From Desulfobacula toluolica Tol2 (GTDB lineage Bacteria; Desulfobacterota; Desulfobacteria; Desulfobacterales; Desulfobacteraceae), in assembly GCF_000307105.1 (NCBI RefSeq), contig NC_018645.1:4164001-4228000 (forward strand): 64,000 nucleotides of DNA. The letters run 5' to 3'. Each line of letters opens with the position of its first letter. Position 1 is the first letter of the stretch. Below the pieces are notes generated by a model that saw nothing but the letters and a program-made list of their open reading frames with translations, made no database searches and was not told where the DNA came from. Positions 11,406-59,764 of this stretch are shown here, piece after piece. The position numbers and the translations under genes are program-made.

Positions 11406-11421
11406 AGCAAGCCTTGTGCCA
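11406..11421 (-). promoter_or_regulatory. Sigma-54 promoter of the fliL operon
   Basis: Read on the minus strand the site is TGGCACAAGGCTTGCT, a full match to TGGCAC-N5-TTGCW with exact -24/-12 spacing. It would give a leader of roughly 40 bases before fliL. It is the best sigma-54 match in the window. Confidence 0.85.
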
Positions 11422-50818: not shown

Positions 50819-50866
50819 GTATTGTTCAAAAAGTCAAATTTTAAAATTTTATTTTTTGAACAATAC
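50819..50866. repeat. 14-base perfect inverted repeat between divergent hisI and kinase genes
   Basis: GTATTGTTCAAAAA (50,819-50,832) and its exact complement (50,853-50,866) enclose a 20-base AT-rich spacer. It could be a hairpin or an operator serving either divergent unit. The other ~150 bases of this gap show nothing definite. Confidence 0.6.
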
Positions 50867-51018: not shown

Positions 51019-52929
51019 ATGAAATCGGCAGACAACCCATCAGCACTTCAAAACGCACAAAAAGCAGAAAAATCAGCCAGAAAATTGTACCAGAAAAGCC
51101 GTCTTGCACAAAAGCGGCTCCACACACTCTTAAAATTCCTGCCTGACCCGGTTTTTGCATTCACCCTTGACAAAAAAGTCGAATACATCAATCCCGCATT
51201 TGAAAGAGTCTTTGGCTGGACCCTAAAAGAGGTAAAGGGAAAAAACATTAAATTCATTCCTGATCACTTGATTGCACAGGCAAAAAAGGGAATGAAACAA
51301 TTGTTTGAAAACCAATCAATTCATGAGTTTGAAACCCAAAGATACACTAAAGACGGACGAATTCTTGATATATCAATTGATGGCTCAATTCTGTACGATG
51401 AACAGAATAAACCGGCAGGACAGGTATTGATACTGAGAAATATTACTACAGAAAAGCGCATGGAAAAAAGCAACCAGATTCTGTTCAGGATCTCCAGGGC
51501 ATTGCACCAGTATCTGGAATTAGGAGATCTGATCGCTTTTATCAACAAGGAAATCCAGAAACTGATATCCGTGGAAGGTGCTTTTATTTTACTTGCGGAC
51601 AAATCAAAAGATCAACTCTATTTTTTTTCTGCCCAGTACCGGAATGCTGAATCGGAAAAAAAGTTTAAAAAAATCAGGTTTTCTGCTGACCAGGGGGTTT
51701 CCGGACGTGTTTACAAAACCGGAGAACCCCTTATTATCTTAGATGCTGCAAATTGCCCGTTTTTTCTGCGACGGGTTGAAGATGAAACCGATCTTGTTAC
51801 AAAAAACATGCTGTCTGTTCCGATAAAACTCAAAGACCGGATCATTGGTGTCATTTCGGTTACCAATAAAAGCCATGGAGAATTTGACAACACGGATGTT
51901 GAACTTTTGAGCATGGTAACCAATACCATTGCTCTGCCCATTGAAAATACCCGGATACATGAAGAATTAAAAAGATCTTATAAGGAACTTAAAACATTAA
52001 ACCGTGCAAAAGACAATGTGATCAACCATCTTGCCCATGAATTAAAAACTCCTGTTTCAGTTTTGGGTGCATCCATGAAACTTTTATCAAAAAAACTTAA
52101 AGCCGCTGGATTACAAGACCCGCTCATTGAAAAAATTCTCACAAGAGGACAAAGAAATCTTAACAGGATTCTGGACATTCAGTATGAAGTTGAAGATCTG
52201 TTGAGAAAAAAAGATTTCAAAGCCTATCACATACTCAACAGGCTTCTGGATGCATGCAAAGATGAATTAAATATCCTCATTGAAAGTGAAACCGATAACA
52301 TTGATATTATAAAAAGGGTTCATGATGCCATAGAAAACCTTTTCGGTCCAAAGAAAATCCAATCCAAATATCTTCTCCTGAATGAATATCTTATCAACAG
52401 GATTGATCAGCTTCGACCGGAATTCCAGCATCGAAACTGTGTTTTAAACACTCGAATTGACAAAAATATTCCTGTTTTTATTCCGCCTGAAATTCTTGAT
52501 ATCATAACAAAAGGAATCATCCGGAATGCATTTGAATATACCCCGGATGCCGGTCAAATTGACATTGTCTTGAAAAATACAGGAAATGATCCTGAACTGA
52601 TTGTCACGGATTCCGGCATTGGATTTACCCGAGAAAAATTACACCTGATATTTGAAAACTATTTCACGCCTCCCGACTCAATTGATTATTCAACAAAAAA
52701 ACCCTATGATTTTAATGCAGGCGGCAGGGGCTTTGATCTTCTGAGAATAAAAATTTTTTCCGAAAAGTATCACTTTAAAATATGGATTGATTCAAACCGA
52801 TGCGGCGTCATACCAAAAGATAATGATATCTGTCCAGGTGACATTCATCTATGCCGGGCATGTAAAACTCCCAATGACTGTTTTGCTTCAGGAGGAACAT
52901 CCATACATATTAAATTTCCGGTAACCTGA
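51019..52929 (+). CDS. Cytoplasmic PAS-GAF sensor histidine kinase with C-terminal cysteine cluster
   Basis: A 636-residue kinase with no membrane segment. PAS (about 33-145; FLPDPVFAFTLDKKVEYIN), GAF (about 160-310), a dimerisation domain with His340 in INHLAHELKTPVSVLG, a helical insert, then an ATPase domain with the N box IIRNAFEYTP, VTDSGIGFTRE and a glycine-rich lid (GGRGFDLLRI). Near the end, Cys605, Cys612, Cys615 and Cys621 lie close together (CPGDIHLCRACKTPNDC). It lies 24 bases before a second kinase; together with the sigma-54 regulator at 58,427 it should form one system. Confidence 0.87.
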   Translation: MKSADNPSALQNAQKAEKSARKLYQKSRLAQKRLHTLLKFLPDPVFAFTLDKKVEYINPAFERVFGWTLKEVKGKNIKFIPDHLIAQAKKGMKQLFENQSIHEFETQRYTKDGRILDISIDGSILYDEQNKPAGQVLILRNITTEKRMEKSNQILFRISRALHQYLELGDLIAFINKEIQKLISVEGAFILLADKSKDQLYFFSAQYRNAESEKKFKKIRFSADQGVSGRVYKTGEPLIILDAANCPFFLRRVEDETDLVTKNMLSVPIKLKDRIIGVISVTNKSHGEFDNTDVELLSMVTNTIALPIENTRIHEELKRSYKELKTLNRAKDNVINHLAHELKTPVSVLGASMKLLSKKLKAAGLQDPLIEKILTRGQRNLNRILDIQYEVEDLLRKKDFKAYHILNRLLDACKDELNILIESETDNIDIIKRVHDAIENLFGPKKIQSKYLLLNEYLINRIDQLRPEFQHRNCVLNTRIDKNIPVFIPPEILDIITKGIIRNAFEYTPDAGQIDIVLKNTGNDPELIVTDSGIGFTREKLHLIFENYFTPPDSIDYSTKKPYDFNAGGRGFDLLRIKIFSEKYHFKIWIDSNRCGVIPKDNDICPGDIHLCRACKTPNDCFASGGTSIHIKFPVT

Positions 52930-52953: not shown

Positions 52954-55032
52954 ATGGATTTTTTTATGAAAAAAAAATATTATTATAAAGATTTTACCAA
53001 AATCCATTTGATTATATTCTTCATAGGACTTTTTACTCTTTTTATTGTGATAGAAACCTTGATCCTGTCATCAGAGTATCGAAGCAGCATGACCAATGAT
53101 GTTCTGGAACAATTTAATAATCAGCAGATACACCTTGCCCGGCAGACTGCAAACGGGATTGAAAAATTTTTTGAAGACATTTTAAGGGATTTGACATTGC
53201 TCAGTCAATATCCCAATATTACAGGACAAAATCAAAACGACATCGACCTGACCCTGGAACAGTTTTATAAAAAAAGCAACCATGATGTGATTCATTTTTA
53301 CAAACTTGATGCCAATGGGATCATGACCAACATTTACCCTAAAAATGTTGCACGCGGCAAAACTTTTTTATTTCGAAATTATTTTATTCAGACCAAAGAA
53401 AGCCTTAAACCCCACGTCAGCAAATTTATTAAGGTTCAAGCTGATTACTGGACCATTGTTCTTTCCTGTCCCATTCTACGGATTGAAAATAAAAAAACAG
53501 TCTTTGATGGACTGGTTGCCGCTACAGTCAGCGTAGACAAACTTCGCACCCTGTTTTTTGAACCGTTTAGACTCTCTGCAAACGGTTACGGATGGATGAT
53601 GGATGATGATGGTACGGTTACCATCAATCCCATTGAAATGGGATGGACGGGAAAAAATATCAATGCCCTGTTTGACCATCCAGGTGAAAAAGGACTTGAA
53701 GCATTGACATCACGAATGAAGAAAGGAGAGGAAGGTCTTGGCAATTACACCTATCACTTTATTGATAAATCAGCGGCATTCAGCCCTCTCAAGATAGGCC
53801 AGAGAGTTTGTTCGGTTGCCATCTGTACACCAATTGAAGAAATCAAGCAATTTATGCAAAAAACCTTTATCAAGGAAAAAAAACTTCTGGCGTTTGTCAT
53901 TCTGGTGATCATTATCGCAGGGGGCTGTGTCATGTTTCTCACCCGTCATATCTATCTTTCCCGCATGGAGGAACACTCCTGGGACAAGCTTATGGGAATC
54001 TTCAAAGCCATGTCCAGCGGTGCCTGTATTATTTCACCGGACCACACGATTGCATTCATTAATCCCGCTCTGATGAAAAGCCTGGGAATTGATGAAAATA
54101 AAATCATGAATATTCCGTGCCATACCTTTTTTATGGGACAAGATAAGCCCTGCAAAGAATGTCCCATGGAAGACACATGGGGTCAGGGCATTCCAGGCTA
54201 TGCCCTCAAACGATTCACCCCTGTTTCAGGCCAGGCTTTTTCTGCTGAAGTGCTTACAATTCCACTTTCTGAAACACATGAAACACCTCCCCATGTTTTT
54301 TGCTATATTAAAAACCTCACAGAAGAGATCACCCTTAAAAGGAAACTGACACAGTCCCAGAAAATGGCTGTAATCGGGGAGCTTGCCGCCGGCATAGCCC
54401 ATGAGATGCGCAATCCTCTTTTATCCATCTGTTCAGCCAGCGAGATGCTTCTGGACAGTCCTAATCATGACAGTGAGGAAGCCACTCTGGCACAAGTCAT
54501 ACACACCGAGGCCAGAACACTTGAAACCGTTATCCGGGAATTTTTGCTCTATGCCCGGCCACCTGTACTGAACAGAACACATACCCAGCTCAACGACCTG
54601 GTTAAAAAAATATGCAAACAAGCAAAATCAAGGAATGACTTTGGATCTTCCATTATCATAGAAACAAGCCTTGCCCATGATTTACCCAAGGCGTACCTGG
54701 ATAAAAACAGACTCTCACAAATTATCTGGAACCTTGTTCAAAATGCCAGAGACGCAATAGAAGACCAGGGTATCATAAAGGTTATCACTGAATGGAAAAA
54801 CACAAAAGGGATAAGAAAAAATATTATATTAATTGTGGAAGATTCAGGCAAAGGAATTGATCCTGAAATGAGCAAAGATCTTTTCAAGCCTTTTTTTACC
54901 ACAAAAGAACATGGACTTGGCATGGGCCTTGCTCTTGTAAAGCAAGCGGTTGAATTGCATCAGGGCAGCATTAAATTTGAACAAAATTCTTTTGGAACAC
55001 GATTTACTATTGTATTGCCACTGATGTCATAA
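52954..55032 (+). CDS. Membrane sensor histidine kinase with dCache-like sensor and PAS
   Basis: A 692-residue kinase. Membrane helix 1 at about 18-40, an extracellular dCache-like domain (about 41-305), helix 2 at about 311-331, PAS (about 345-455) with a CH...PCKECP cysteine set, dimerisation domain with His483 in GIAHEMRNPLLSICSA, and an ATPase domain with IIWNLVQNARDAIED, VEDSGKGIDPE and HGLGMGLALV. dCache domains commonly bind small carboxylates or amino acids outside the membrane, which would suit control of the symporter downstream. Its natural partner gene at 55,081 is broken. Confidence 0.88.
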   Translation: MDFFMKKKYYYKDFTKIHLIIFFIGLFTLFIVIETLILSSEYRSSMTNDVLEQFNNQQIHLARQTANGIEKFFEDILRDLTLLSQYPNITGQNQNDIDLTLEQFYKKSNHDVIHFYKLDANGIMTNIYPKNVARGKTFLFRNYFIQTKESLKPHVSKFIKVQADYWTIVLSCPILRIENKKTVFDGLVAATVSVDKLRTLFFEPFRLSANGYGWMMDDDGTVTINPIEMGWTGKNINALFDHPGEKGLEALTSRMKKGEEGLGNYTYHFIDKSAAFSPLKIGQRVCSVAICTPIEEIKQFMQKTFIKEKKLLAFVILVIIIAGGCVMFLTRHIYLSRMEEHSWDKLMGIFKAMSSGACIISPDHTIAFINPALMKSLGIDENKIMNIPCHTFFMGQDKPCKECPMEDTWGQGIPGYALKRFTPVSGQAFSAEVLTIPLSETHETPPHVFCYIKNLTEEITLKRKLTQSQKMAVIGELAAGIAHEMRNPLLSICSASEMLLDSPNHDSEEATLAQVIHTEARTLETVIREFLLYARPPVLNRTHTQLNDLVKKICKQAKSRNDFGSSIIIETSLAHDLPKAYLDKNRLSQIIWNLVQNARDAIEDQGIIKVITEWKNTKGIRKNIILIVEDSGKGIDPEMSKDLFKPFFTTKEHGLGMGLALVKQAVELHQGSIKFEQNSFGTRFTIVLPLMS

Positions 55033-55080
55033 AACAATAATATGCGGTTAATTTAAACTGAAAACAGGATCAGAGGACAA

Positions 55081-55457
55081 ATGACAAAAATCCTTCTGGT
55101 TGATGACCAGGAATCCGTATTGACAAGTCTTTCTATTCTTTTGCGCAGAAATGGTTTTCATGTCGTTACCGCAAAAAATCCAACTGATGCAAAATGCCAT
55201 CTGGTTAAATAAGATTTCGACCTGGTATTAACGGATCTTCGTATGAAAAAGCCCTATGACGGCTTACAAGTACTCAAAGATGCCAAGGCATTAAGATCAG
55301 GAATCCATGTGATCATCATGACTGCCTTTGGAACCATTGAAAATGAAGTTGATGCAATGACAATGGGGGCTGATGACTATGTTACAAAAGGATTTTCCAA
55401 CAAGGAATTGAATAAAAAAAGAGTTTCATAAAATTATCGGCAAAAGCAAACCCTTGC
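55081..55457 (+). pseudogene. Broken copy of the sigma-54 response regulator (receiver only)
   Basis: It matches the first part of the intact gene at 58,427 almost base for base. Codon 44 is TAA (55,210-55,212) where the intact copy has GAA. About 35 further bases are missing after GGAATTGA, and homology stops near 55,457 at the start of the AAA+ domain. No helix-turn-helix remains. It still sits in the operon position right after the kinases. Confidence 0.9.
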
Positions 55458-55468
55458 TGCATAATTCT

Positions 55469-55503
55469 GTTTCACTTCGAAGCAAAGCGTTTCAACTTGA
55501 AAC
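55469..55503 (+). promoter_or_regulatory. Paired upstream activator-like sites of the symporter promoter
   Basis: Two related 15-base palindrome-like elements, GTTTCACTTCGAAGC (55,469-55,483) and GTTTCAACTTGAAAC (55,489-55,503), have the same form GTTTCA-N3-xGAAxC. Their centres are 20 bases apart, about two helical turns. They lie about 180-210 bases upstream of a sigma-54 promoter, the usual place for activator binding. Confidence 0.65.
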
Positions 55504-55680
55504 AAATACCTGAACCATTTAAATCTCCTCAAAAAGCAAGAATTATCAAAAAATAATTTAGTCTCATTTAATTTCTCCGGAATAAAAAATTAAAACCATC
55601 CACAGAGGTAACCCCTTAAACTGTTTTTCTTATATTTGCTACAGTCACGTCAACTTGGAGAGCAGGCCTAAAAATCCATT

Positions 55681-55696
55681 TGGCATTTAATTTGCT
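55681..55696 (+). promoter_or_regulatory. Sigma-54 promoter of the symporter operon
   Basis: TGGCATTTAATTTGCT fits TGGCAY-N5-TTGCW with exact spacing and gives a leader of about 78 bases before the small accessory gene. The remainder of the 55,458-55,785 gap is AT-rich. Confidence 0.8.
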
Positions 55697-55785
55697 TTAA
55701 GTAAACAATGAACAAAGATGCTGCAGCTCTAAGATTGTGTAAAAAAATACAAACCGTTTAAATCAATTTATCAGGAGGTAAAAAA

Positions 55786-55890
55786 ATGTTTGGATTAACA
55801 GATATCGGAATACTTATGGCATACGGTTTATCCGCTTTAAGTACACTGCTTTGTGTTGTATACGGAGCGATAAACTGGAACAAGGATTAA
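55786..55890 (+). CDS. 34-residue symporter small accessory protein
   Basis: A tiny gene with a strong AGGAGGT site. The product begins MFGLTDIGILMAYGLSALS and ends YGAINWNKD, with one membrane helix. Very small proteins of this type are known just upstream of sodium:solute symporters in sulfate reducers and are annotated as symporter small accessory proteins. The symporter starts 59 bases downstream. Confidence 0.82.
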   Translation: MFGLTDIGILMAYGLSALSTLLCVVYGAINWNKD

Positions 55891-55949
55891 AATCAAACAG
55901 GATTTGTCAACTCGTCTAACCTAATTAATTTCAGGAGTATATAAAGGCC

Positions 55950-57554
55950 ATGAACTACACGTTATTAAACAGTATTATTGTGATCTATGTCGGATTAATC
56001 GCCTATCTAGGGTACTTGGGATACAAACATACAAACTCGACCAAAGATTATCTTGTTGCTGGCGGAGAAATCAATCCTTTTATCATGGCACTTTCCTATG
56101 GGGCCGCCTTTATCAGTACGTCTGCAATAATAGGATTTGGTGGAGCTGCAGGCGCATTTGGCATGGGGCTGTTATGGTTGACTTTTTTTACCATATTCGT
56201 CGGTATTTTCATCGCCTTTGTCTTTTTCGGAAAAAGAACCCGGCAGATGGGACAAAACCTGGAAGCCACAACATTCCCGGATCTTTTGGGAAAACGTTAT
56301 GATTCAAACCTTATAAGGGCTTTTTCCAGTCTGATTATTTTTGTATTCATGCCCCTTTATGCGGGAGCTGTTCTCATTGGTGCGGCAAGATTTCTTGAAA
56401 CCGGCCTTGGAATAAGCTATATTACGGCCTTAATTGTTTTCACTGCCATTATTACCGTATATGTCACCACAGGGGGATTAAAAGGCGTGATGTATGCAGA
56501 TGCGTTCCAGGGCTCCATCATGTTTCTGGGTATGGCATTCCTTATCATTTACACCTATGTCCAGCTTGGCGGATTTACTAATGCTCATGTTCTTTTAACC
56601 GACATGGTCCACCTTGTGCCGGCAAAATTACAGGCCATAGGCCACCAGGGGTGGACCAGTATGCCGAAATTCGGCTCAGCCCTCTGGTGGGTAGTGATAT
56701 CCACACTGGTCCTTGGTGTCGGAATTGGAACCCTTGCACAACCCCAGCTGGCCGTTAAGTTCATGACCGTTAAAAGTAATAAATCCCTGAACCGGGCCAC
56801 CCTTATAGGGGGGATTTTTATATTTTCAATGACCGGTGTTGCTTTTGTTGTGGGCGCATTGTCTAATGCCTATTTTTTTAAAAATTTTGGAAAAACAGCA
56901 TTGGAAATGGTTGGAGGCAATTTTGACAAGGTGATTCCGCTGTTTATTAAAACATGTATGCCGGAATGGTTTGCATATATTTTTATGCTGACCCTTATTG
57001 CCGCTGCTATTTCAACCCTGTCCAGTCTCTTCCATGTAATGGGTGCCTCCATAGGCAAGGATCTGTACGAAAGCATGATCACAAAAGACAATAGGGGTTC
57101 CCAGAAACAATCAATGTTTCTTATCCGCACAGGCATTGTTGCCGGTATTCTCCTGAGCCTTTTGCTTGGGTATATCCTTCCCATCAGTATCATTGCCAGA
57201 GCAACCGCCATGTTTTTCGGCATCGCTGCAGCCACCTTCCTGCCCATGTTCATGCTGGGTATATACTGGAAAGGCGTAACCCGGATAGGTGCTATTTCAG
57301 GTATGTTCACCGGCGCACTAAGTTCAATCTTCTGGCTGGTATTTATCCATAAAAAAGAAGCCGTTGCCTTAGGGATATCCCAGGCGATCTTTGGGAAACC
57401 TTTTTTAATTGAAACCTTTCCATGGATGGTTGTTGATCCCATCATCGTTGCACTTCCCCTTTCTCTTGCGGTTACCATTGCCGTCAGTTTTTTTACAGGC
57501 AACACTGCCATTCAACCCCCTCACCTGAAAAAATGTTTTGAAGGAATTGGATAA
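55950..57554 (+). CDS. Sodium:solute symporter (SSS family)
   Basis: A 534-residue protein with about 13 membrane helices. SSS features: YLVAGGEINPFIMALSYGAA and the following SAIIGFGGAAG (sodium-site helix 1 region), TGGLKGVMYADAFQGSIMFLG (helix 5-6) and ISTLSSLFHVMGASIGKDLY (helix 8 with the Ser/Thr Na2 site). Likely substrates are monocarboxylates, amino acids or similar; none can be fixed from sequence. The operon has a sigma-54 promoter and paired activator-like sites, next to a sigma-54 two-component system. Confidence 0.9.
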   Translation: MNYTLLNSIIVIYVGLIAYLGYLGYKHTNSTKDYLVAGGEINPFIMALSYGAAFISTSAIIGFGGAAGAFGMGLLWLTFFTIFVGIFIAFVFFGKRTRQMGQNLEATTFPDLLGKRYDSNLIRAFSSLIIFVFMPLYAGAVLIGAARFLETGLGISYITALIVFTAIITVYVTTGGLKGVMYADAFQGSIMFLGMAFLIIYTYVQLGGFTNAHVLLTDMVHLVPAKLQAIGHQGWTSMPKFGSALWWVVISTLVLGVGIGTLAQPQLAVKFMTVKSNKSLNRATLIGGIFIFSMTGVAFVVGALSNAYFFKNFGKTALEMVGGNFDKVIPLFIKTCMPEWFAYIFMLTLIAAAISTLSSLFHVMGASIGKDLYESMITKDNRGSQKQSMFLIRTGIVAGILLSLLLGYILPISIIARATAMFFGIAAATFLPMFMLGIYWKGVTRIGAISGMFTGALSSIFWLVFIHKKEAVALGISQAIFGKPFLIETFPWMVVDPIIVALPLSLAVTIAVSFFTGNTAIQPPHLKKCFEGIG

Positions 57555-57564
57555 CTTTTTGGGA

Positions 57565-57729
57565 GGGGTCAGGGCAAACGCATTAAAAAAAACGGTTGTA
57601 ATAAATTCAGTCGATTGAAAGATGTAGTTGAAATGTTTTTTTAGTTTTTTAAAATTCATTAATTCTATAACTATTTAAATTTATTAAAATCAAAAAACAT
57701 GCCAAATTTTAATGCGTTCACCCTGCCCC
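57565..57729. mobile_element. 165-base MITE-like element with ~23-base imperfect terminal inverted repeats
   Basis: The ends at 57,565-57,588 and 57,707-57,729 are inverted copies sharing a GGGG...CAGGG...AACGCATTAAAA core with a few mismatches. The ~118 bases inside are AT-rich and code for nothing. No target duplication could be made out. It lies just after the symporter and about 95 bases before the kinase remnants of the second module copy. Confidence 0.6.
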
Positions 57730-57821
57730 ATTAGTCCATAAGTGTTGCCATGAGACATATAATTTGATAATAACGACCTAAAAAATAATAAATTTTGAAT
57801 CATTTTTCAGGTCGTTCAGAA

Positions 57822-58113
57822 GATTGTACCAGAAAAGCCGTCTTGCACAAAAACGGCTCCACACACTCTTAAAATTCCTGCCTGACCCCGGTGTTTGCAT
57901 TCACACTTGATAAAAAAGTTGAATAAATCAATCCTGCATTTGAAAGAATCTTTGGCTGTACCTTGAAAGAGGTAAAGGGAAAAAACATTAAATTCATTCC
58001 AGATCACTTGATTGAGCAGGCAAAAAAGGGAATGAAACAATTGCTTAAAAACCGATCAATTTATGAGTTTGAAACCCAAAGATATACTGATGGACGAATT
58101 CTTGATATATCAA
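57822..58113 (+). pseudogene. Remnant of a copy of the PAS-GAF kinase
   Basis: It aligns to 51,083-51,380 of the intact kinase (PAS domain). It has an extra C that shifts the frame, a TAA replacing the Tyr codon in VEYINP, a 3-base deletion and many substitutions. It stops abruptly after GATATATCAA and joins the tail of the second kinase copy. Confidence 0.9.
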
Positions 58114-58378
58114 AGGTATCATAAAGGTTATCACTGAATGGAAAAATACAAAAGGGATAAGAAAAAATATTATATTAATTGTGGAAGATTCAGGCAAAGA
58201 CATTGATCCTGAAATGAACAAAGATCTTTTCAAACCTTTTTTTACCACAAAAGAACATGGACTTGGCATGGGCCTTGCTCTTGTAAAGCAAGCAGTTGAA
58301 TTACATCAGGGCAGCATTAAATTTGAACAAAATTCTTTTGGAACACGATTTACTATTGTATTGCCACTGATGTCATAA
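58109..58378 (+). pseudogene. Remnant of a copy of the dCache kinase (ATPase end)
   Basis: It repeats 54,771-55,032 of the intact kinase with only about eight changes, keeping VEDSG through HGLGMGLALV to the stop codon. The His-containing and sensor parts are gone, so it cannot signal as a kinase. An open frame from 58,181 could still make a short 65-residue ATP-lid peptide. It leads straight into the intact regulator. Confidence 0.88.
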
Positions 58379-58426
58379 AACAATAATATGCGGTTAATTT
58401 AAACTGAAAACAGGATCGGAGGACAA

Positions 58427-59764
58427 ATGACAAAAATCCTTCTGGTTGATGACCAGGAATCCGTATTGACAAGTCTTTCTATTCTTTTGCGCAGAAATGG
58501 TTTTCATGTCGTTACCGCAAAAAATCCAACTGATGCAAAATGCCTTCTGGTTAAAGAAGATTTCGACCTGGTATTAACGGATCTTCGTATGAAAAAGCCC
58601 TATGACGGCTTACAAGTACTCAAAGATGCCAAGGCATTCAGATCAGGAATCCATGTGATTATCATGACTGCATTTGGAACCATTGAAAATGCAGTTGATG
58701 CAATGACAATGGGGGCTGATGACTATATTACAAAAGGATTTTCCAACAAGGAATTGATTAAAAAAATCAATAAGATCCTCAAAAAAAAGAGATTCAAATC
58801 AATTGACCAGCCAAAAGCAAAAGAATTTCATAAAATTGTCGGCAAAAGCAAACCCTTGCGCAATGCCTTGGAAATCATTCGAAAAGTGGCCCCTACCGAC
58901 AGTTGCCTGATGATCCATGGAGATTCGGGTACAGGAAAAGAACTGATTGCCAAAACCATTCACAGTCTATCCCTTAGAAAGGACAAAATTTTTCTGCCCG
59001 TAAATTGTGCGGCTTTTTCCGATACACTCCTTGAAAGTGAACTGTTCGGACATATCAAGGGAAGTTTTACGGGTGCAGATGCTGATAAGCACGGCCTTTT
59101 CTGTGCTGCTCATACCGGCACTTTATTTTTAGACGAAGTGTCGGAAATGTCAAAAGCCATGCAGGCAAGACTTCTGAGGGTATTGCAGGAAAAAAATGTA
59201 ACTCCCGTTGGAAGTACTTCCACCTATCCTGTTGATGTCAGGATTATTTGTGCAACGAATAAAGACCTTCTGGAAGAAGTTTCAGCAGGAAATTTCAGGG
59301 AAGATCTTTATTTTAGATTGTGTGTTATTCCAATTGTATTACCATCACTTGAGGAGAGAAAAGAAGACATCCCTCTGCTGATTGGTTTTTTCATCAACAA
59401 CCTGAGCAAAAAATTTCTTAAAAAACCTATAAAAATTGACAAAAAGGCCATGGACTTGATCATGGAGCGACACTGGCAGGGAAATATAAGAGAACTTGAA
59501 AATTTTATAGAACGAATGATACTTCTGCTGGATAAACCTGTTTGCAACGAATCGGATATTATATCTCTTCTGCCACCGGTCCAAAGCCACAAATTAACAC
59601 CATCTCCTTCTTCTCTTTCAATGACTGAGAGTGAGCAGATTTTAAACGTTCTTAAATACTGCAATTGGAATCAAAGCCTTGCTGCGAAAAAACTGGGTAT
59701 CGGCCGAACAACACTCTGGCGAAAAATCAAACAATATAAAATTACACATAAGCTTCAGGTCTGA
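58427..59764 (+). CDS. Sigma-54-dependent response regulator (NtrC type)
   Basis: A 445-residue protein behind GGAGG. Receiver (1-120) with Asp8, Asp9, phosphoacceptor Asp52 (VLTDLRM), Thr81 and Lys103. AAA+ domain (about 140-370) with HGDSGTGKE, the sigma-54 loop as GSFTGA (usual form GAFTGA), LFLDEVSEM and RLCVIPI. Fis-type helix-turn-helix at the end (NQSLAAKKLGIGRTTLWRKI). It is the only complete regulator of this system, since the copy next to the kinases is broken. Likely target: the sigma-54 promoter of the symporter. Confidence 0.92.
   Translation: MTKILLVDDQESVLTSLSILLRRNGFHVVTAKNPTDAKCLLVKEDFDLVLTDLRMKKPYDGLQVLKDAKAFRSGIHVIIMTAFGTIENAVDAMTMGADDYITKGFSNKELIKKINKILKKKRFKSIDQPKAKEFHKIVGKSKPLRNALEIIRKVAPTDSCLMIHGDSGTGKELIAKTIHSLSLRKDKIFLPVNCAAFSDTLLESELFGHIKGSFTGADADKHGLFCAAHTGTLFLDEVSEMSKAMQARLLRVLQEKNVTPVGSTSTYPVDVRIICATNKDLLEEVSAGNFREDLYFRLCVIPIVLPSLEERKEDIPLLIGFFINNLSKKFLKKPIKIDKKAMDLIMERHWQGNIRELENFIERMILLLDKPVCNESDIISLLPPVQSHKLTPSPSSLSMTESEQILNVLKYCNWNQSLAAKKLGIGRTTLWRKIKQYKITHKLQV

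Follow-up and report, generated by a model that had tools for sequence, protein, structure and literature searches.

A putative sigma-54-dependent two-component cassette for an SSS-family symporter and its small accessory protein in Desulfobacula toluolica Tol2

In Desulfobacula toluolica Tol2, a compact cassette probably couples the sensing of an external solute to sigma-54-dependent synthesis of an SSS-family symporter. The cassette lies within the window, the 64,000-nt stretch of DNA analysed here, and comprises the sensor histidine kinase B, the response regulator R, a pair of candidate R sites, a sigma-54 promoter, a small accessory protein, and the symporter. Judged from sequence comparison, it is likely that these parts form one functional unit that works as proposed, with the neighbouring kinase A as a bystander. 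First, B would bind the external solute and phosphorylate R. Phosphorylated R would then bind both dyads and, as an AAA+ enhancer-binding protein, open the sigma-54 promoter, so that the accessory protein and symporter would be made and the solute taken up. Sensing of a solute by a kinase, phosphorylation of an NtrC-type regulator, and the switching on of a target by that regulator with sigma-54 are established biochemistry of these families, and it is phosphotransfer, binding, induction, and a ligand of this kind that we infer for the cassette.

All parts of the cassette are found on the + strand. The gene for the dCache-PAS sensor histidine kinase B (52954..55032; Pfam dCache_1, PAS_9, HisKA, and HATPase_c) is followed by a dead first copy of the regulator gene (55081..55457), two candidate activator sites, TGTTTC-N5-GAAGCA (55468..55484) and CGTTTC-N5-GAAACA (55488..55504), and the sigma-54 -24/-12 promoter TGGCATTTAATTTGCT (55681..55696), identified by pattern match. 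Behind the promoter lie the genes for the 34-aa accessory protein (55786..55890) and the 534-aa SSS-family sodium:solute symporter (55950..57554), and the intact 445-aa regulator R is encoded farther downstream (58427..59764). On re-inspection of the sequence, the preliminary description of the sites, promoter, small gene, and symporter proved right, as did their coordinates. What it had called a tiny membrane protein ahead of an SSS symporter matches the NCBIfam model NF045580, "symporter small accessory protein" (60.3 bits, cut-off 35), and directly precedes the SSS gene, whose product matches PF00474 (195.8 bits, cut-off 22.8) and TIGR00813 (200.3 bits, cut-off 184). Against the named SSS subfamilies PutP, PanF, ActP, and MctC, all models listed fell below their curated cut-offs. 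Compared with its counterpart at locus L026 over 532 codons, the symporter gene differs at 70 first, 26 second, and 231 third codon positions, and it evolves under purifying selection.

The two regulatory proteins carry intact motifs. Kinase B contains the H, N, and G boxes. R consists of a receiver, an AAA+ sigma-54 domain, and a Fis-type HTH (Pfam Response_reg, Sigma54_activat, and HTH_8), which is the build of an NtrC-family sigma-54 activator. Its GAFTGA loop is present as a GSFTGA variant at residue 212, as it is at loci L026 and L027, and its Walker motifs are intact. The stretch AAKKLGIGRTTLWRKIK of the DNA-binding domain is identical in the window and both of these loci. The equivalog cut-offs of AtoS (213 vs 646 bits), AtoC (350 vs 714 bits), and ZraR (378 vs 760 bits) were not reached, and no DctB or DctD equivalog model stands among the best 25 NCBIfam matches for B and R.

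A search of genome contigs for related loci returned 15, two of which, L026 and L027, encode a symporter with 86% identity. These derive from two related Desulfobacteraceae MAGs, which contig coordinates identify as genomes G082 and G081. In both, B, R, the paired sites, the sigma-54 promoter, the small protein, and the symporter follow one another without interruption on one strand, with the B match (70-71% identical) directly before R (73-74%). The core of the preliminary description, which put the dCache kinase and NtrC-type regulator, the paired sites and sigma-54 promoter, and the small protein and symporter in one set, is thus supported: in these MAGs the set recurs intact and on one strand. 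The sensor domain of B was found at E<=1e-40 in three of 389 genomes of the order, including its own. At E<=1e-120, the symporter occurs in four of 86 family genomes, namely its own, the two MAGs (86-87%), and one in the genus that carries a 52% relative, and this relative was the single match at E<=1e-100 in the other 25 genomes of the genus. Wherever B or this symporter was found in the genomes searched, B, R, the small protein, and the symporter were all present. The set is therefore patchily distributed, with the B-R-symporter combination seen in one other lineage, that of the two related MAGs. Outside the family, the closest relatives of the symporter are at L040 (59%, cut by the contig end) and L028 (58%); among plasmids, the best relative is 48.6% identical, and no relative was found in the viral contigs searched. 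In the order, seven of 389 genomes carry accessory-protein genes, and in the phylum 36 of 395 do. The G+C content of B (0.40), the symporter (0.44), and R (0.39) does not mark the set as foreign against the window (0.40), so transfer is inferred from distribution alone.

Kinase A (51019..52929, + strand), a PAS-GAF histidine kinase, is a neighbour that probably stands outside the system as a bystander. If both kinases fed R, the symporter would integrate an internal signal, through the PAS-GAF kinase, with an external one, through the dCache kinase. With 24 bases between the end of A and B on the same strand, co-transcription is possible, and the 5' part of A was duplicated along with B and R. 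However, A-like kinases occur at E<=1e-80 in 54 of 86 family genomes (own genome included, paralogs counted), against the symporter's four, and a blastp comparison of eight neighbourhoods of A relatives with the window ORFs (E<=1e-20) detected neither B nor the symporter in any, two of the eight being contigs of <7 kb. Moreover, in the genomes of both MAGs the best A match is on a different contig from the symporter. A shared role of the two kinases is thus decidedly unlikely, and the part in the system that the preliminary description had given to the PAS-GAF kinase is not supported, as relatives carry A without the cassette. In one of them, G023 (locus L087), A has the upstream neighbours that it has in the window, four of them at 84-92% identity, which we take to be his genes, and is followed by a PBP1A-type gene, with no cassette. 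At L089, a different sigma-54 activator-like ORF lies 0.7 kb downstream of A. Two further features of this region were observed, namely a cysteine cluster in A, CPGDIHLCRACKTPNDC, near the end of the ATPase domain (52800-52926), which could be a metal or redox site, and a 48-base AT-rich palindrome (50819-50866; 24-nt arms, 92% complementary, no loop) between A and the divergent upstream gene.

The promoter of the small protein and symporter had been described as an exact sigma-54 promoter. The GG-N10-GC core is indeed exact, but the element has two mismatches to TGGCACGN4TTGCW. In the form matched by the promoter, this consensus has 18 matches in the window against 8.5 expected. At L026 and L027 the same element is found (TGGCATCCAATTTGC), conserved as TGGCAN6TTGC and placed 189 bp after the first site (212 bp in the window). 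The pattern TGGCAYN5TTGCW has six matches in the window against 0.26 expected, two of the six lying in the coding repeat of kinase B and its dead copy. Elsewhere in the window, three other exact matches to this pattern, at 11406, 17321, and 29164 (- strand), are candidate sigma-54 promoters. The placing of the paired sites about 200 bases before the promoter was confirmed, with its TGG lying 212 bp past the first GTTTCA start and 192 bp past the second.

The dyads are probably binding sites of R, a reading suggested by their conservation as a pair in one other lineage. In the window each is 17 bp long and the two are 20 bp apart from centre to centre. Dyad symmetry alone was dropped as proof of sites, being within chance: dinucleotide shuffles gave a bare dyad pair as good in 387 of 2000 cases for the window (328-base region), 245 of 2000 for L026, and 304 of 2000 for L027, and in a wider dyad search shuffles were as good in 191, 45, and 183 of 200 cases, respectively. 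Conservation was assessed with a dyad consensus symmetrised from the window and chosen after L026 had been inspected. The upstream regions of L026 and L027 (315 and 294 bases) each contain the pair with 4/24 mismatches and a spacing of 19 bp, against 20 bp in the window. A pair of that quality against this window-derived consensus arose in 0/5000 shuffles for L026 and 0/5000 for L027; the window's own 0/5000 is circular, and since L026 and L027 are close relatives, the footprint counts as one comparison. The next best pair has eight mismatches in each of the 17.6-kb L026 and L027 loci, and six in the window, compared with two at the sites. In local alignments of the upstream regions the best block is the dyad block, but its significance is modest, as mononucleotide shuffles equalled it in 74 of 2000 cases for L026 and 84 of 2000 for L027.

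The preliminary description had called for a search for the same paired sites elsewhere in the genome. A loose pattern for the pair, drawn up from the window and L026, matches the 5.2-Mb genome once, at this locus, with none in the reversed control, so no further pair was found. A scan of the genome for single sites with <=1 mismatch gave 249 forward matches against 303 in the reversed control, with places given only among the matches listed, so that single sites reveal no regulon. The second dyad core of the window with <=2 mismatches gave 24 matches against 16 in the control. The paired-pattern result bears on a rival account in which another NtrC-type activator of the genome drives the symporter operon with sigma-54, leaving the local regulator as a relic or a regulator of other genes. 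Many sigma-54 activators are usual in related bacteria, with 36 sigma-54 regulons described in D. vulgaris (PMC4641369), and one local regulator copy is broken. However, an intact copy is retained, regulator and sites co-occur in the MAGs, and the genome has a single match to the paired pattern, all of which make control from elsewhere very improbable.

The surroundings of the symporter record a duplication followed by decay, and the regulator pseudogene directly before the dyads and the kinase debris behind the symporter were absent from the earlier reading. The pseudogene has a stop at codon 44 and an internal deletion near 55420, and its homology to R ends at 55457. Behind the symporter lie a palindromic interspersed repeat with inverted arms (57570..57725), a sequence copied from just upstream of a PBP1A-type gene and left stranded here (57738..57816, + strand), a dead piece of kinase A (57817..58113, + strand; approximately codons 20-119), and a dead piece of the 3' end of kinase B (58115..58378, + strand). 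Three repeats are shared across the symporter: 51078-51376 with 57817-58113 (92% identical), 54769-55420 with 58115-58766 (97.5%), and 55424-55457 with 58826-58859 (97%). The PBP1A-type gene itself is located at 1.0 Mb in the genome, and the 79 bases directly preceding it are those also present, at 90% identity, at 57738-57816. In addition, the spacer between A and PBP1A in G023 is 75% identical to 57736-57811 over 76 bases. Together with the order of A and PBP1A in G023, this spacer match indicates that the cassette was most likely inserted between these two genes. The interspersed repeat, with ends CAGGGCAAACGCATTAAAA, recurs at 1.36 Mb as a copy of 74% identity, and 30 bases of one end are found at 0.34 Mb.

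The simplest account would be a tandem duplication that began inside A, ran to the PBP1A spacer, and was joined at 57816/57817. Through later deletions, the first copy would have lost the greater part of its regulator gene, and the second copy the bulk of A and B along with its small protein and symporter genes, while PBP1A would have been displaced. One intact copy of each gene is left, and R now stands behind the symporter. The kinases and regulator had been described as flanking the symporter; this arrangement is present, but the flanking regulator is the product of the decayed duplication. Homology of the dead regulator stops 10 bases short of the first dyad; the deletion thus removed the body of the regulator gene but left the sites untouched. 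Three pseudogene pieces and the repeats at the junction could be read as a locus in decay, with B and R split, regulation lost, and the symporter weakly or constitutively expressed, but one intact copy of each gene with intact motifs and the sparing of the sites render this highly doubtful.

The sigma-54 cassette as proposed may have acquired a new property through this history. R is encoded on the strand of the symporter, 873 bases farther on, and read-through from its own target promoter could raise R, in which case duplication and decay would have turned plain inducible uptake into a positive-feedback switch. In the MAGs R stands before the promoter and thus cannot be raised by it. A consensus scan of the + strand from 57555 to 58427 listed no terminator-like site, but the repeat at 57555-57735 folds strongly and might still halt transcription. 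A competing possibility is a separate promoter for R, as the consensus scan gave a sigma-70-like match just before it (58361-58389). We consider the feedback switch fairly unlikely.

For the solute, which the preliminary description suggested to be carboxylate-like, the guess of an organic acid comes from gene context in distant relatives and is weak, and an amino acid is possible. Among 56 loci with an accessory protein and symporter, phenylacetate-CoA-ligase-like matches at E<1e-100 were found in three, ACT-like matches in four, and IorA in one, the query proteins having been taken from L028, L031, and L109, themselves among the 56. The phenylacetate-CoA-ligase-like proteins do not reach the PaaK equivalog cut-off. 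At L028 and L031, the ACT-like proteins, which we take to be such by eye, matched no NCBIfam model at 1e-20. A cluster of AMP-binding ligases lies within 4.5 kb in eight of the 56 loci, five of seven among the matches listed coming from one family; the Pfam check of this cluster covered two proteins of one locus. At L026, B is preceded by a methionine-gamma-lyase-like and an Lrp-like gene, each scoring below cut-off, and these point rather to amino acids. The dCache domain of B has two weak matches among PDB sequences (E 7e-4 and 0.0025), and a structure model of this domain was dropped as a ligand clue (pLDDT 39.5). At L028 (4831-10138, Saelkia MAG), genes for IorA, an IorB-like protein, two phenylacetate-CoA-ligase-like proteins, and an ACT-like protein come after those for the accessory protein and symporter, and two receiver-only response regulators are encoded upstream.

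A literature search for the phrase "symporter small accessory protein" found no paper, and at title level none of the papers listed concerned this locus. In the DctB-DctD and MifS-MifR/PA5530 systems of Rhizobium and Pseudomonas, the kinase senses an external carboxylate, and an NtrC-type regulator and RpoN are needed for the uptake transporter (PMC4482717). The present cassette is of the same kind, combining a sensor kinase, an NtrC-type regulator, sigma-54, and an uptake transporter, but its transporter is an SSS symporter with a small accessory protein and its regulator is encoded behind the target. The sites of D. vulgaris sigma-54 regulons are likewise palindromic, with inverted repeats of 4-6 bp spaced 3-8 bp apart (PMC3333781); TGTTTC-N5-GAAACA can be written as TGT-N11-ACA. 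There, the biggest fraction of promoters is <=100 nt from the site, whereas the distance here is about 200. GTTTC has no occurrence in the main texts on these regulons, where individual motifs stand in figures and supplements. A Cache-domain kinase beside a sodium-driven transporter is shared with the sulfate-transporter clusters of Desulfobacteraceae (PMC11887813). In the sections used here, those clusters have WalR-type regulators and DASS or SulP transporters, with no sigma-54 named, in contrast to the NtrC-type regulator and SSS symporter of the cassette. The NF045580 accessory protein is known together with an SSS symporter, which it directly precedes here, but an R-like regulator lies within 4 kb only at L026 and L027 among the 56 loci, some of which have short flanks. 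Six further loci have a 38-42% identical regulator 4.5-6.2 kb away, and kinase-like ORFs lie near the symporter at L094, L140, L167, and L171. The pairing is thus not general among these loci. Tying an uncharacterised SSS symporter and accessory protein to a sensor, a regulator, and candidate sites makes the solute searchable through the promoter, and a sensor-regulator-transporter set that outlived a messy duplication with its sites spared offers a small natural test of regulatory rewiring. Set against the known systems, sigma-54 two-component control of an SSS symporter is an ordinary kind of system, newly delimited here, with an unusual local history.
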